Assembly (NCBI RefSeq): GCF_900289045.1
Contig: NZ_LT985188.1
Coordinates: 2,914,001 to 2,978,000, forward strand
Source of the DNA: Micropruina glycogenica
GTDB lineage: Bacteria > Actinomycetota > Actinomycetes > Propionibacteriales > Propionibacteriaceae
Reading direction: 5' to 3'
DNA: 64,000 nt
Each line of letters opens with the position of its first letter. Position 1 is the stretch's first letter. A model generated the notes under the pieces. That model did no database searches. It was given only the letters and a program-made list of their open reading frames with translations, and had not been told where the DNA came from. This document shows, piece by piece, positions 51,967 to 61,272 of this stretch. The translations under genes were made by a program, and so were the position numbers.

Positions 51967-53037
51967 CTATGTCTTGTCAAGGGTGGTCGTGTTGAGGTGT
52001 CGGAAGATTTGGCGGGCGATGTAGCGCTTGAGGCAGCGTCGGATTCGGGGTTTGGTTTGGCCTTGCTGTTTGCGTTTCTTGACGTAGGCCTTGGTGGTTT
52101 CGTCGTGTCGCATGCGGGTGTTCGCGATGGAGTTCAGGGCTGAGTTGAGTTGTCGGTCGCCGGTGCGGTTGAGGCGATGATCCTTGGAGTTGCCCGAGGA
52201 GATCTCCAGGGGGCAGACGCCGCCGATCTTGGCGAAGCCGGCTTCGTCATGGATGCGGCCGGGGTGAGACCAGACGGCGAGCACAATGGCGGCGTTGATG
52301 GGTCCGAGGCCGGGCAGGTCGAGCAGGGTTGGTTCGAGTTCACGCACGAGGGCGTTGATGGCTTTCTCGTTGCTGTCGAGGTCGGCGTCCAGGGTGTGGA
52401 TGCGGGTGGCGAGGCGGTGCGCTTCGGTGCGGGCGATCCGGGCCAGGGTGGTGTCGGTGGGCCGCTTGCGCCAGCCCGCAATGAGGCTGATGTGGACCTT
52501 GTTGATTCCCTTGCGGGCATCGATGTCGAGGTTGTGGGTGCGTAGCAGCGCGGTGAGCTGGTTCTTGGAACGGGTCCGGTCGCGTCGCATGCTGTCGCGG
52601 GCGGTGAGCAGGATCTGCAGCGCGGCACGGGTATGGCCGGCGCGTCGGTCGGCGAGCCGTTCGCTGTCCTTGGGTAACGCGCCGCGGGCAGCGACCAGGG
52701 CATCGATGTGGTCGTTCTTGCCGCTGCCACGAGCCCGTTTCGGCGAGGGTGCGTCGACGACCCGGTAACCGCGTGCGGCGAGCAGCTCGGCTGCCTGGGC
52801 GCCGTAACTGCCGGTGCCTTCCATGCTGATCAGCACCTGGTCGACAGCTGGGTTGTCGTCAACACTGGTGCGGCGGCTGATCCAATCCACGGCCCGCAAC
52901 AAGCCCGCGGCATGGGTGGGGAACTTCCCGTGGGTGATCTGGCCGCCGCTACGGGTCTCCACGATCGCGTAATGATGAGTGGCGGCGTGGGTGTCCACAC
53001 CCACCACATAGGTGTAGGTATCTGCAACGATGGCCAT
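51967..53037 (-). CDS. IS110-family transposase (RNA-guided recombinase type)
   Basis: A 356-residue DEDD recombinase. The RuvC-like domain has YVVGVDTHAATHHYAIVETR (first Asp), ISMEGTGSYGAQAAELL (Glu) and GKNDHIDALVAARGAL (two Asp). The C-terminal transposase_20 domain has LLDLPGLGPINAAIVLAVWS, the conserved Ser-region FAKIGGVCPLEISSGNSKDH then RLNRTGDRQLNSALNSIA. ATG 53037 is preferred; the longer frame overlaps the structured RNA region. Members of the IS110 subgroup use a bridge RNA from the upstream end to choose targets. Confidence 0.95.
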   Translation of the reverse strand: MAIVADTYTYVVGVDTHAATHHYAIVETRSGGQITHGKFPTHAAGLLRAVDWISRRTSVDDNPAVDQVLISMEGTGSYGAQAAELLAARGYRVVDAPSPKRARGSGKNDHIDALVAARGALPKDSERLADRRAGHTRAALQILLTARDSMRRDRTRSKNQLTALLRTHNLDIDARKGINKVHISLIAGWRKRPTDTTLARIARTEAHRLATRIHTLDADLDSNEKAINALVRELEPTLLDLPGLGPINAAIVLAVWSHPGRIHDEAGFAKIGGVCPLEISSGNSKDHRLNRTGDRQLNSALNSIANTRMRHDETTKAYVKKRKQQGQTKPRIRRCLKRYIARQIFRHLNTTTLDKT

Positions 53038-53096
53038 CGGTGTCTGAGCCTCCTGTTTTCGGGATGTTGGGCATCGAGCCGGTCGAACCGGCGCGG

Positions 53097-53293
53097 CCAT
53101 CCCGGGGAAAGAGTCACCCGTGGCGTTACTGTGATCGGTCACCCCGCCAAAGCGGTGGGACGGGCTTCTATCAGGCCAACGAGTGGGCCGGGATGGTCGG
53201 CCGGTTCTCCGTGCACGAGCCGGACAGATCTCGACCAAGACACCCCGCACAATTGCGGACGGTCAGCTTGTCGAAGGGTCACGACCCGCACAC
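53097..53293 (-). ncRNA. Predicted bridge RNA of the IS110 element, with target and donor loops
   Basis: Read 5'-3' on the minus strand. Target loop: stem GTGTGCGGGTCG (53293-53282) with CGGCTCGTGCAC (53222-53211), 12 pairs including four G-U. Left guide TCGACAAGCT (53274-53265) equals the left target plus core. A small hairpin CCGCA-ATTG-TGCGG (53258-53245) follows, then right guide TGGTCGAG (53237-53230), complementary to core plus right target. Donor loop: perfect 9-bp stem CCATCCCGG (53196-53188) with CCGGGATGG (53105-53097), ATAGAAGC (53171-53164) equal to the element's right end (51970-51963), a hairpin, and TCACAG (53134-53129) complementary to core plus left end. Order and layout match IS621 bridge RNA. 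Not verified by folding or expression data. Confidence 0.75.
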
Positions 53294-57159: not shown

Positions 57160-57891
57160 TCAGCTCAGTCGTTGGCGCGAGATGAACCGGAACCGGTCGC
57201 CGCGAAACCGCCCGGTCGACCACTCCACCGTGCGCCCGTCGTGGTCCCAGCCCGTGCGGTGTATCAGCAGCAGCGGCAGGCCCGTGTCGACCCGCAGCAG
57301 ATCGGCCGTCACCGGGTCGGCCAGCACTGTTTCGACGGTGTCTTCGGCCGTGGCCAGGCTGATGCCGTACGCCTCATGCAGGGTGCGGTACAACGACGAG
57401 TGCTCCGCGAGCCGTTCGGCCAGGTGCGGCAACGGGCCGGGCAGCAGCGCGATCTCATGCGCGATGGGCTCGTCGGCCGAGGTGCGCAACCGCTCGACCC
57501 GATGCACCATGGTGCCCGGCTCGACCTGCAGCCGCTCCGCCGCCTCGACGCTCGCCGGCACCTCAGAGATGTCGAGCACCACGCTGCCCGGCCGCCAGCC
57601 CTCTGACTGCAGATCCTGGCTGAACGACGTGAGCGGACGCACCACCATCAGTTTCGGCTGTGCCACAAACGTGCCGCTGCCCTGGGTTCGGGCCAGCCGG
57701 CCGTCCACCACGAGTTCGGCGATCGCCTGCCGCACGGTGGTGCGCGACGTGCCGAACCGCACCGCGAGTTCGCGCTCGGTGGGCACGGCGGTGCCGGGCG
57801 CCAGGTCGGCGATCATCCTCAGAATCTCGCGCTTCACCTGATAGTACTTCGGCACCCTGACCGTGGTCCTACCGGGGCCGTCGATGGTCAT
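57160..57891 (-). CDS. dasR: GntR/HutC-family regulator (DasR/NagR-like)
   Basis: A 243-residue regulator. The GntR winged helix-turn-helix (VPKYYQVKREILRMIADLAP, then VPTERELAVRFGTSRTTVRQ, AIAELVVDGRLARTQGSGTF) is followed by a UTRA effector domain (GSVVLDISEVPASVEAAERL, VHRVERLRTSADEPIAHEIA). In known DasR/NagR proteins the effector is glucosamine-6-P or N-acetylglucosamine-6-P. It is divergent from the nag cluster, and three dre-like sites lie in the gap, so it probably represses the PTS-nagB-nagA operon and itself. Confidence 0.88.
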   Translation of the reverse strand: MTIDGPGRTTVRVPKYYQVKREILRMIADLAPGTAVPTERELAVRFGTSRTTVRQAIAELVVDGRLARTQGSGTFVAQPKLMVVRPLTSFSQDLQSEGWRPGSVVLDISEVPASVEAAERLQVEPGTMVHRVERLRTSADEPIAHEIALLPGPLPHLAERLAEHSSLYRTLHEAYGISLATAEDTVETVLADPVTADLLRVDTGLPLLLIHRTGWDHDGRTVEWSTGRFRGDRFRFISRQRLS

Positions 57892-57909
57892 GAGCCCACA
57901 GTACCCAAT

Positions 57910-57979
57910 ATTGGACTAGACCAAAGCTTGACGTCTGCGATTGGTCTATGCCAATCTTCTCTCATTGGTCTACACCAAT
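57910..57979. promoter_or_regulatory. Three dre-like operators of the DasR/NagR type
   Basis: ATTGGACTAGACCAAA (57910-57925), ATTGGTCTATGCCAAT (57940-57955) and ATTGGTCTACACCAAT (57964-57979). All fit ATTGG-N6-CCAAT with a TCTA core, close to the DasR consensus (ACTGGTCTAGACCACT). Sites two and three are spaced 24 bp, sites one and two 30 bp. They lie between the GntR gene and the PTS gene. Confidence 0.85.
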
Positions 57980-58021
57980 CATTACCCCGGTCAACCCCCG
58001 ACATCCAACGAGGAGCACCAC

Positions 58022-59222
58022 ATGTCAACCGCAGCCCCGGCAAAGACGCCGACCAAGGACTCCGGTCCACGCATTCCCGGATTCGCCCAACTGCAGCGTC
58101 TCGGCAAGAGCCTGATGCTGCCCATCGCCCTGCTGCCCGCCGCCGGCATTCTGCTGCGCCTGGGCCAGCCCGACCTGCTCGGCCAGATCAAGATTCCCGT
58201 CATCGGCCCCTTCTTCGAGGCCATGAGCGCGGCGGCGACGCCATCTTCGGCAACCTCGCCCTACTGTTCGCCGTGGGCGTGGCCATCGGCTTCGCCAAGA
58301 AGGCGGACGGCTCGACCGCCCTGTCTGCGGTGGCCGGCTACCTGGTCATGACCGCCGTGTTCAAGAGCATGTCGCCGGTCGTGCTGGCCGGCGTGATGAA
58401 CTCGGCCGGAACCCAGGCCCAGATCAACTACAGCGTCTTCGGCGGCATTCTGATCGGCCTGATCACCGCCTGGCTGTTCGACAAGTACCACGACATTCAG
58501 CTGCCGCCCTACCTCGGCTTCTTCGGCGGCCGCCGGTTCGTGCCGATCGTGGTGTCGCTGTCGACCAGGCCAAGCTGCGGGCTCTCGGCGCGGCCGGCGT
58601 GGTCGAGGTCGGCAACAACGTGCAGGCCATCTTCGGCACCCAGGCCGACGCGCTCAAAAGCGACATCAACAACACCCTGGTGGCCAACCCGACCGATCCG
58701 ATCGAGACCGTCGCGGCCCTCGAAGAGGTCGCCCCGGCCGCCGCGGTGGCCACGGTCGACGTGCCCAGCACCACCATCGTGGCGCCGGTCGCCGGCCGTC
58801 CGGTGGCGCTGAAGGACGTGCCGGACGCCACCTTCGCCCAGGGCCTGGTCGGCTACGGCCTGGCCATCGACCCGCCCCGCGAGGTGGTGGACGCGGTCGC
58901 TCCGGTGGCCGGTTCGGTGATGAAGCTCTGGCCCCACGCCTACGTGGTGCTCACCGACGACCAGGTCGGCGTGCTGGTGCACCTCGGCATCGACACCGTG
59001 CAGCTCAACGGCGAGGGTTTCACCACCCACGTGGCCGAGGGCGATCGGGTCGAGGTCGGCCAGAAGGTGATCACCTACGACGTGCCCGCCGTCGAGGCCA
59101 CCGGACGCAACCCGATCATTCCGGTGCTGGTGATGGAGCGGCAGGCGGACGGCGTGGCCTTCACAGACGCCGTGATCGGTGACCACGTGGCGGCCCTGGA
59201 CGCCCTGTTCAGCACCCGCTGA
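58022..59222 (+). pseudogene. nagE: N-acetylglucosamine-type PTS permease (EIICBA) with frameshift and internal deletion
   Basis: Three frames carry one family sequence. Frame one (58022-58234): RIPGFAQLQRLGKSLMLPIA then PFFEAMSAA, the EIIC start. A missing base in GGCGG near 58232 shifts it to frame two (58234-58562): GDAIFGNLALLFAVGVAIGF, then YLGFFGGRRFVPIVVSLS. From 58563 frame three gives DQAKLRALGAAGVVEVGNNV (end of EIIB) and a full EIIA domain with VLVHLGIDTVQLNGEGF. About 250 residues, including the rest of EIIC and the EIIB phospho-Cys, are absent. It would normally import and phosphorylate the amino-sugar. As read, it cannot. An assembly error is possible. Confidence 0.85.
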
Positions 59223-59305
59223 GAACCGGGATCCGGGCCGGCATCCCCCACCGGCCCGGGTCCCCCTGCACCCGTCTCAACCCCCACCCACAAGGAGATT
59301 CAGTC

Positions 59306-60091
59306 ATGGAAATCGTCATCTGCCGCGACGCTGTCGAGGCCGGCAAGCTCGGCGCGGCCACCATCGCCGAGCTGGTGCGCAACAAGCCCGACGCGGTGCT
59401 CGGCCTGGCCACCGGCTCGTCCCCGCTGGCCATCTACGACGAGCTGGCGCGGCTCTACGACGCGGGCGAGGTGTCGTTCGCCAAGGCGAAGGGATTCAGC
59501 CTCGACGAGTACGTGGGCCTGGCCGCCGACCACCCCGAGACCTACCACAACGTGATTCGCCGCGACTTCGTGCACCGCGTCGACTTCGAAGACGGCAACG
59601 TGCGCGGCCCCGACGGCCTGGCTGAAGACATTCCCGCCTTCTGCGCCGAGTACGAGGCCGCGATGGCCGCCGCCGGCGGCGTCGACCTGCAGATTCTCGG
59701 CATCGGCACCGACGGCCACATCGGCTTCAACGAGCCCGGGTCGTCCCTGGCCTCGCGCACGCGCATCAAGACCCTCACCAAGCAGACCCGCATCGACAAC
59801 GCCCGCTTCTTCGACGGCGACCTCGACCGGGTACCCACCCACTGCATCACGCAGGGCCTGGGCACCATCATGTCGGCCAGGCACGTCGTGCTGGTGGCCA
59901 GCGGGGTGGGCAAGGCCGAGGCCGTGCACCACGTGGCCGAGGGTGCGGTGAGCGCCATGTGGCCGGGCACGATTCTGCAGCACCACCCGCACGTCACCGT
60001 GCTGCTCGACGAGGGCGCCGCCAGCCGGCTGCAACTCACCGGCTACTACCGCGAGACCTACGCCGCCAAGCCGGCGTGGCAGGGTCTCTGA
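59306..60091 (+). CDS. nagB: Glucosamine-6-phosphate deaminase
   Basis: A 261-residue enzyme converting glucosamine-6-P to fructose-6-P and ammonia. VLGLATGSSPLAIYDELARL binds phosphate, SLDEYVGLAADHPETYHNVI carries the catalytic Asp, and LGIGTDGHIGFNEPGSSLAS the catalytic His region. Length is normal. AAGGAG precedes the ATG. It follows the PTS gene by 83 bases and nagA begins 26 bases after it, so the genes form one operon under the GntR regulator. Confidence 0.97.
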   Translation: MEIVICRDAVEAGKLGAATIAELVRNKPDAVLGLATGSSPLAIYDELARLYDAGEVSFAKAKGFSLDEYVGLAADHPETYHNVIRRDFVHRVDFEDGNVRGPDGLAEDIPAFCAEYEAAMAAAGGVDLQILGIGTDGHIGFNEPGSSLASRTRIKTLTKQTRIDNARFFDGDLDRVPTHCITQGLGTIMSARHVVLVASGVGKAEAVHHVAEGAVSAMWPGTILQHHPHVTVLLDEGAASRLQLTGYYRETYAAKPAWQGL

Positions 60092-60117
60092 GCCGCCGGA
60101 CGAGAAAGGACAACACC

Positions 60118-61272
60118 ATGTTGCTCACCGCTGACCAGGTGGTCACCGGTACCGAGGTGTACAGCCCGGGCTGGGTCGAGATCTCGGACGGCGCGGTCAC
60201 CGCGATGGGTGCCGGCGCCGGGCCGCGGGCGGTCGACACGGCGCAGGGCGATGTCGCGCTGGGCGGGGTCACCGTCGTGCCGGGGTTCGTCGACATGCAC
60301 ACCCACGGCGGCGGATCGGGGGCCTTTCCCGACGCCACCGAGGACGGTTCTCGGGCGGCGGTCGCACTGCAACGCCGGCACGGCACCACCACGCTGGTGG
60401 CGTCCCTGGTGTCGGCGCACCCAGACGAGTTACTACGTGAGGCGGCGGTGCTGGGCGAGCAGGTGCAAGACGGCCTGATCGCCGGCATTCACCTCGAGGG
60501 GCCGTGGCTGTCGCCGATGCGCTGCGGCGCGCACGAGCCGTCCGCCTTGCGGTCACCGGAGTTGGCCGAGGTCGAGCGGGTGTTCGCAGCGGCCAAGGGC
60601 GCGGTGCGCATGGTGACCATCGCCCCCGAGCTCGACGGAGCCATGCCCGCCATTCGCCGCATGGTCGAGCTGGGTGCGGTGGCGGCGGTAGGTCACACCG
60701 ACGCCAGCTACGAGCAGGCCAAGGCGGCCATCGAGGCCGGCGCCACCGTGGCGACGCACCTGTTCAACGCGATGCGGCCGATCCATCACCGCGAGCCGGG
60801 CCCCGTCGTGGCCCTGATGGAAGACCCGCGCGTCACGGTCGAACTGATCAACGACGGCGTGCATCTACACCCGGCGCTGTACCAGTTCGTGAACCGTGAG
60901 GCGGGCTCTGAGCGCATCGCGCTGATCACCGACGCCATGGCCGCCGCGGGTATGGAGGACGGTTCGTACCACCTGGGTTCGTTGGCCGTCGACGTGGTCG
61001 GCGGGGTGGCCAAGGTGGCCGGCACCGACACCATCGCGGGCAGCACCGCCACCATGGATCTGGTCTTTCGCAACGCCGTGCTGAACAGCGGCCTGCCCCG
61101 CGACGAGGCGTTGGCCATCGCCGTGCGGCAGACGTCGGTGATTCCGGCTCGCGCGGTCGGGTTGGACGAGGCCGGGCTGCTGGTCGGGTCGGCCGCCGAC
61201 CTGGTGGTGCTGAACGACGACCTGCGCGTGGCGCGGGTGATGAAGACCGGCGCCTGGGTCGACCTGAGCTGA
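60118..61272 (+). CDS. nagA: N-acetylglucosamine-6-phosphate deacetylase
   Basis: A 384-residue amidohydrolase removing acetate from GlcNAc-6-P. The first metal motif is VPGFVDMHTHGGGSG; GIHLEGPWLSPMRCGAHEPS holds the Glu, VGHTDASYEQ and GATVATHLFNAMRPIHHREP the His ligands, and ALITDAMAAAGM the catalytic Asp. ATG 60118 with GAAAGGA is chosen over the longer frame. The acetate could join the pta-ackA pool. It is last in the nag operon and followed by a hairpin. Confidence 0.96.
   Translation: MLLTADQVVTGTEVYSPGWVEISDGAVTAMGAGAGPRAVDTAQGDVALGGVTVVPGFVDMHTHGGGSGAFPDATEDGSRAAVALQRRHGTTTLVASLVSAHPDELLREAAVLGEQVQDGLIAGIHLEGPWLSPMRCGAHEPSALRSPELAEVERVFAAAKGAVRMVTIAPELDGAMPAIRRMVELGAVAAVGHTDASYEQAKAAIEAGATVATHLFNAMRPIHHREPGPVVALMEDPRVTVELINDGVHLHPALYQFVNREAGSERIALITDAMAAAGMEDGSYHLGSLAVDVVGGVAKVAGTDTIAGSTATMDLVFRNAVLNSGLPRDEALAIAVRQTSVIPARAVGLDEAGLLVGSAADLVVLNDDLRVARVMKTGAWVDLS

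Follow-up and report, generated by a model that had tools for sequence, protein, structure and literature searches.

A probable very recent pseudogene of a NagE-type EIICBA permease in the nag operon of Micropruina glycogenica

The nag locus of Micropruina glycogenica combines an intact regulator and intact catabolic genes with an EIICBA permease gene spread over three reading frames, which raises the question of whether the permease was lost by the organism or broken by the assembly. The stretch of DNA analyzed here (the window, 64,000 nucleotides) spans positions 2914001-2978000 of a genome that consists of one contig of 3,844,677 bases, and its GC content is 67.8%; positions below are those of the window unless marked as genome positions. 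Probably, the gene is that of a NagE-type permease and has only very recently turned into a pseudogene, disabled through two lesions.

The nag locus and its broken permease gene

The locus comprises, in order, a divergently transcribed GntR/UTRA regulator, three dre-like operators, the broken EIICBA gene, nagB and nagA. The regulator gene (57160-57891, minus strand) encodes a protein matching the Pfam GntR and UTRA families at 65 and 126.8 bits, respectively, and appears to be DasR/NagR-like, going by its context. Each of the three operators (57911-57924, 57941-57954 and 57965-57978) is an exact match to TTGGWCTANNCCAA. The second and third have counterparts in the same-genus genomes G003, G004 and G005, and the first in G004 and G005, none being found in G003. 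Downstream of the permease remnant (58022-59222, plus strand) lie nagB, encoding glucosamine-6-phosphate deaminase (59306-60091, plus strand; TIGR00502, 276.2 bits, cut-off 236.9), and nagA, encoding N-acetylglucosamine-6-phosphate deacetylase (60118-61272, plus strand; TIGR00221, 239.8 bits, cut-off 225.65), the start of the latter having been picked by eye within the ORF 59959-61272. An AAGGAG upstream of nagB constitutes its own ribosome site, and a scan of 57850-59350 for promoters and terminators found neither kind. An IS110-family transposase gene is located at 51967-53250, approximately 4 kb before the regulator.

The remnant divides into three pieces. Piece 1 (58022-58231, plus strand) carries the start of EIIC, with 61 of 70 residues identical to residues 1-70 of the G003 protein. 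Piece 2 (58231-58559, plus strand) carries EIIC on after a change of frame and matches G003 residues 72-180 with 89 identities over 109 residues (PF02378, 81 bits). Piece 3 (58563-59222, plus strand) uses the third frame and encodes the end of EIIB followed by the whole of EIIA; aligned with G003 residues 476-697, it has 162 identities over 217 aligned residues (PF00358, 129.3 bits). The three pieces thus follow one another along a single 697-residue protein, at 87%, 82% and 75% identity, a pattern that is more than chance. Within EIIA, the His codon of the HLGIDTV motif is retained (58980-58982, plus strand, by sequence reading), this His presumably being the phospho-His. The profile matches and exact operator sites agree with the preliminary description, in which the regulator, operators, nagB, nagA and the EIIA domain were all held to be intact.

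The first lesion is a 1-nt deficit relative to the intact relatives (58229-58232, plus strand), which alignment places at 58229 against G003 and at 58232 against G004; a single missing base near 58232 had been noted earlier. Reading on in the start frame, the first stop codon is reached at 58349-58351. The second lesion is an internal deletion with its junction at 58559/58560, where mid-EIIC passes into late EIIB. The missing stretch amounts to 883 nt against G003 and 886 nt against G004, by alignment to the intact genes, and to 892 nt against G005, by BLAST coordinates. It removes G003 residues 181-475, or ∼295 residues (∼885 bases). The initial account of a frameshift combined with a 250-residue deletion therefore holds for the break, visible in the three-frame reading, and underestimates its size, while the jump from mid-EIIC to the end of EIIB in another frame, which it put at about 58562, lies where the junction and the start of piece 3 place it. 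Two EIIC motifs, GLHHI and GVTEPLEFAF (G003 residues 229 and 316), fall in the deleted part, as does the EIIB cysteine motif DACITRLR (G003 residue 459 onward). What is left of the EIIC transport domain covers positions 48-165 of the 319 in PF02378, and no EIIB with its active-site cysteine is encoded at the locus (no PF00367 match), confirming the reported loss of the phospho-Cys. The other differences in the alignment are end effects at the gene start, EIIB-EIIA linker gaps in multiples of three (58699-58772) and, against G003 only, an offsetting 20/20 gap pair near 59137.

Comparison with relatives supports a pseudogene. A relative of the EIIC piece is present in 8 of 37 genomes, this genome included, and three of the five other same-genus genomes searched (G003, G004 and G005) carry copies with 82-83% identity. 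The orthologues in G003 and G004 are intact, ∼697 residues long and arranged in C-B-A order; that of G005 is an open 718-codon frame ending in masked or unknown bases. In all three genomes the gene is preceded by two or three of the same operators and followed by nagB. The disabling lesions in M. glycogenica are judged against intact orthologues from this same position, and the neighbors of the broken gene are themselves intact. Of the remaining two genomes, G001 has only a 45% identical paralogue, and as nagB starts at base 27 of a contig there, the draft may simply lack the preceding gene; in G002 (80% complete), no relative of the EIIC piece was found.

If both lesions are real, the permease gene would have been broken by a 1-nt deletion in its EIIC part and a ∼885-nt internal deletion from mid-EIIC to late EIIB. 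We infer that the gene yields no working permease: reading from the start codon stops at 58349, and the sequence lacks both the second half of EIIC and the phospho-Cys of EIIB. The substrate of the permease, judging by the operon and its regulator, is probably GlcNAc, whose PTS uptake through EIICBA would then be lost. The operon would be expected to stay largely repressed unless amino-sugar phosphates arrive otherwise, through cell-wall recycling or through ABC import and a kinase. Since nagB has its own ribosome site, nagBA should still be translatable, perhaps at reduced expression through polarity.

Recent loss or assembly error

Selection on the remnant shows little or no relaxation when pooled dN/dS values against relatives (0.33, 0.32 and 0.29) are set beside those among the intact copies (0.35, 0.28 and 0.24). 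Piece 1 alone, with 68-69 codons, gives slightly higher values (0.20-0.25 versus 0.03-0.17). The lesion is therefore either very recent or an artefact, two readings that fit the dN/dS values equally. The second reading holds that a full-length EIICBA gene exists and that a chimeric or deletion-bearing long read, together with an unpolished base, produced both lesions. We consider this unlikely, though a number of features speak for it. The two lesions are only ∼330 nt apart, the junction is explained by neither a repeat nor clear microhomology, and nanopore assemblies do produce 1-nt lesions in GC-rich runs, like the one seen here.

The history of the sequence bears on this in both directions. 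As described in PMC5974061, M. glycogenica Lg2 has a closed genome of 3.84 Mbp with 68.3% GC; if the present genome is that of Lg2, its contig was made from nanopore reads with Canu, which favors an error, but was then polished with Illumina reads and checked by manual read mapping, which speaks against one. Long-read Micropruina genomes from metagenomes, corrected solely by a frame-shift procedure, also exist according to PMC7966762, and an artefact would be likelier if this genome were one of those.

The assembly itself does not appear to be generally frame-broken. Of 244 G003 ORFs compared with the 464 kb surrounding the window, 89 have an orthologue there at ≥60% identity. Eleven of these 89 were flagged as incomplete, three lying in more than one piece and the other eight matched over <80% in one piece. 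The three split orthologues are EIICBA, one with a transposase inside and one with a short insertion; EIICBA alone among the 89 shows matched pieces flanking a missing part. A coding-frame scan flags 12 switches in 453 coding segments (464 kb) here, two of them in EIICBA, compared with 11 in 351 segments (365 kb) in G003, so that frame breaks are no commoner than in this relative. On the orthologue comparison and the frame scan, a frameshift-rich assembly was rejected.

A more specific proposal, that a collapsed assembly had dropped about 750 bases, is not borne out: frame breaks are not unusually common, and there is no repeat available to collapse. The gap itself measures ∼885 bases. With the G003 sequence as a stand-in for the ancestral state, the ±10-nt surroundings of the two breakpoints share a string of at most 4, whereas 300 random position pairs spaced alike average 4.35; the ±100-nt surroundings have a single 9-mer in common, out of register with the breakpoints. 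The lack of a repeat at the junction makes a repeat-mediated collapse unlikely.

The orthologue with a transposase inside lies at genome positions 2873978-2877173, where a DDE transposase gene has split what in G003 is a single ORF of 457 residues; we take the interrupted gene to resemble ferredoxin-NADP reductase, and its first part has no Pfam match at 1e-5. At genome positions 2893769-2895969, a gene lies in two frames relative to G003, with a short repeat-like stretch between the pieces in which CTCGACACGCTCGACCGGCGG occurs twice.

Amino-sugar supply beside the EIICBA permease

If the gene is a very recent pseudogene, GlcNAc might reach the cell by another route, and the preliminary description had suggested a search for another transporter. 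The genome contains four PF02378 matches, one being the broken EIICBA; the other three belong to a beta-glucoside-type EIIBCA, a mannitol-type and a fructose-type protein, and the only EIIB that matches PF00367 belongs to the beta-glucoside-type protein. The search thus yields no GlcNAc-type candidate among the EIIs, and one candidate elsewhere. A cluster at genome positions 786-793 kb encodes a ROK regulator, a binding protein, two permeases, a GH3 beta-N-acetylhexosaminidase-like protein (196.8 bits, cut-off 207) and a ROK kinase and, from its gene content, could be a GlcNAc supply route.

It would be compatible with the pseudogene that this route is an adaptive replacement: with GlcNAc imported by an ABC transporter and then phosphorylated by a kinase, the cell could do without the PTS permease and would have kept nagA and nagB. 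Apart from the candidate cluster, this idea draws on G002, where nagBA has an ABC sugar transporter as its neighbor and the EIIC search found no relative. Replacement nevertheless seems improbable. For the G002 binding protein, the genome offers three matches of 26-30% identity and no close relative. In a search for NgcE proteins, the best match reaches 72.9 bits, short of the 399.65-bit cut-off. The exact TTGGWCTANNCCAA form, searched across the genome, occurs nowhere outside the nag locus. Furthermore, a lesion so recent requires no compensation. A genome-wide kinase search returned five ROK and five BadF-type matches; three ROK proteins and one BadF-type kinase were inspected, and none has a settled GlcNAc assignment. 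Independently of any import, nagA and nagB could also serve cell-wall recycling. In G002 itself (G002:C1:146000-162000), nagB and nagA adjoin the transporter, which is divergent, and there is no dre-like site of the nag-locus kind.

Two possible remnants of other genes were also encountered. A stub at genome positions 2913291-2913680, just before the window, has by eye a sugar-binding-lipoprotein-like start whose signal peptide changes frame, and it continues as an unrelated tail. Next to the stub lie genes for a ROK regulator, a BadF-type kinase and a GH4 hydrolase, and an internal deletion may have cut a second importer here. Neither the 125-aa ORF of the stub, searched against Pfam, nor its 64-residue piece, searched against the plasmid collection, has a match. 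The neighboring GH4 gene is 36-42% identical to relatives in four of the other same-genus genomes, whereas G001 has none. An isolated EIIA-domain tail at genome positions 1650507-1650614 (minus strand) covers 36 of 127 profile positions and is perhaps a relic of another PTS gene. Relocation of the lost EIICBA part was rejected, a family search at E ≤ 0.001 having found no further EIIC or EIIB copy of such kind in the genome; in the plasmid collection, the EIIC piece retrieved 524 records, all at <60% identity.

A wider scenario would place the GlcNAc PTS importer at a point very shortly after its loss, the genus being in the course of replacing PTS amino-sugar import by ABC transport and a kinase. 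The regulator and catabolic genes would then serve amino sugars that are recycled or come in by ABC transport, and the nearby GH4/BadF/ROK cluster, with its truncated stub, would represent a second importer that this strain has lost; this scenario we rate slightly more improbable than the adaptive replacement. Very improbable indeed is a remnant that still works, its complete EIIA being made separately from an internal start (e.g., GTG 58599) as phosphate donor to another EII or a regulator: the EIIA frame is open and complete with its His motif and has a dN/dS like that of intact copies, but no ribosome site is visible before that GTG, and the other glucose-family EII found in the genome carries its own EIIA.

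In biological terms, the very recent pseudogene would be an ordinary recent (or apparent) loss of one sugar permease in an otherwise intact operon. If it is real, the sequenced strain lacks GlcNAc uptake by the EIICBA PTS, though the annotation of regulator, nagB and nagA suggests GlcNAc use, a discrepancy relevant to metabolic models based on a single strain. No title or abstract opening among the Micropruina papers retrieved concerns this EIICBA gene, and the words acetylglucosamine, glucosamine, phosphotransferase and chitin do not occur in the main text of PMC5974061.

Relation to NagE-type permeases and the DasR regulon

The permease resembles the NagE-type EIICBA proteins of the glucose/GlcNAc PTS family in the C-B-A order of its orthologues and in its nag-operon location. 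Unlike these, the M. glycogenica copy is out of frame and lacks ∼295 residues, including the EIIB cysteine. Even the intact orthologues of G003 and G004 score below the curated cut-offs: NF007608, their best-scoring model, gives 539.8 and 528.3 bits (cut-off 1010), and TIGR01998, the best-scoring IIBC model, gives 525.3 and 522.3 bits (cut-off 553.2). The solved structures nearest to the G003 copy by sequence are those of a glucose EIICB.

On the regulatory side, the locus recalls the nag genes of Streptomyces coelicolor under DasR and dre, with which it shares a GntR/UTRA regulator and operators resembling the core of the dre consensus, published as A(G/C)TGGTCTAGACCA(G/C)T in PMC4398421. The genome-wide operator search returned 19 rows in all, against 39 with a reversed-pattern control, and 14 one-mismatch rows lie away from the nag locus. 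Whereas S. coelicolor DasR binds at many genes, exact sites here are found at one locus only, and because of this the M. glycogenica regulon looks local.
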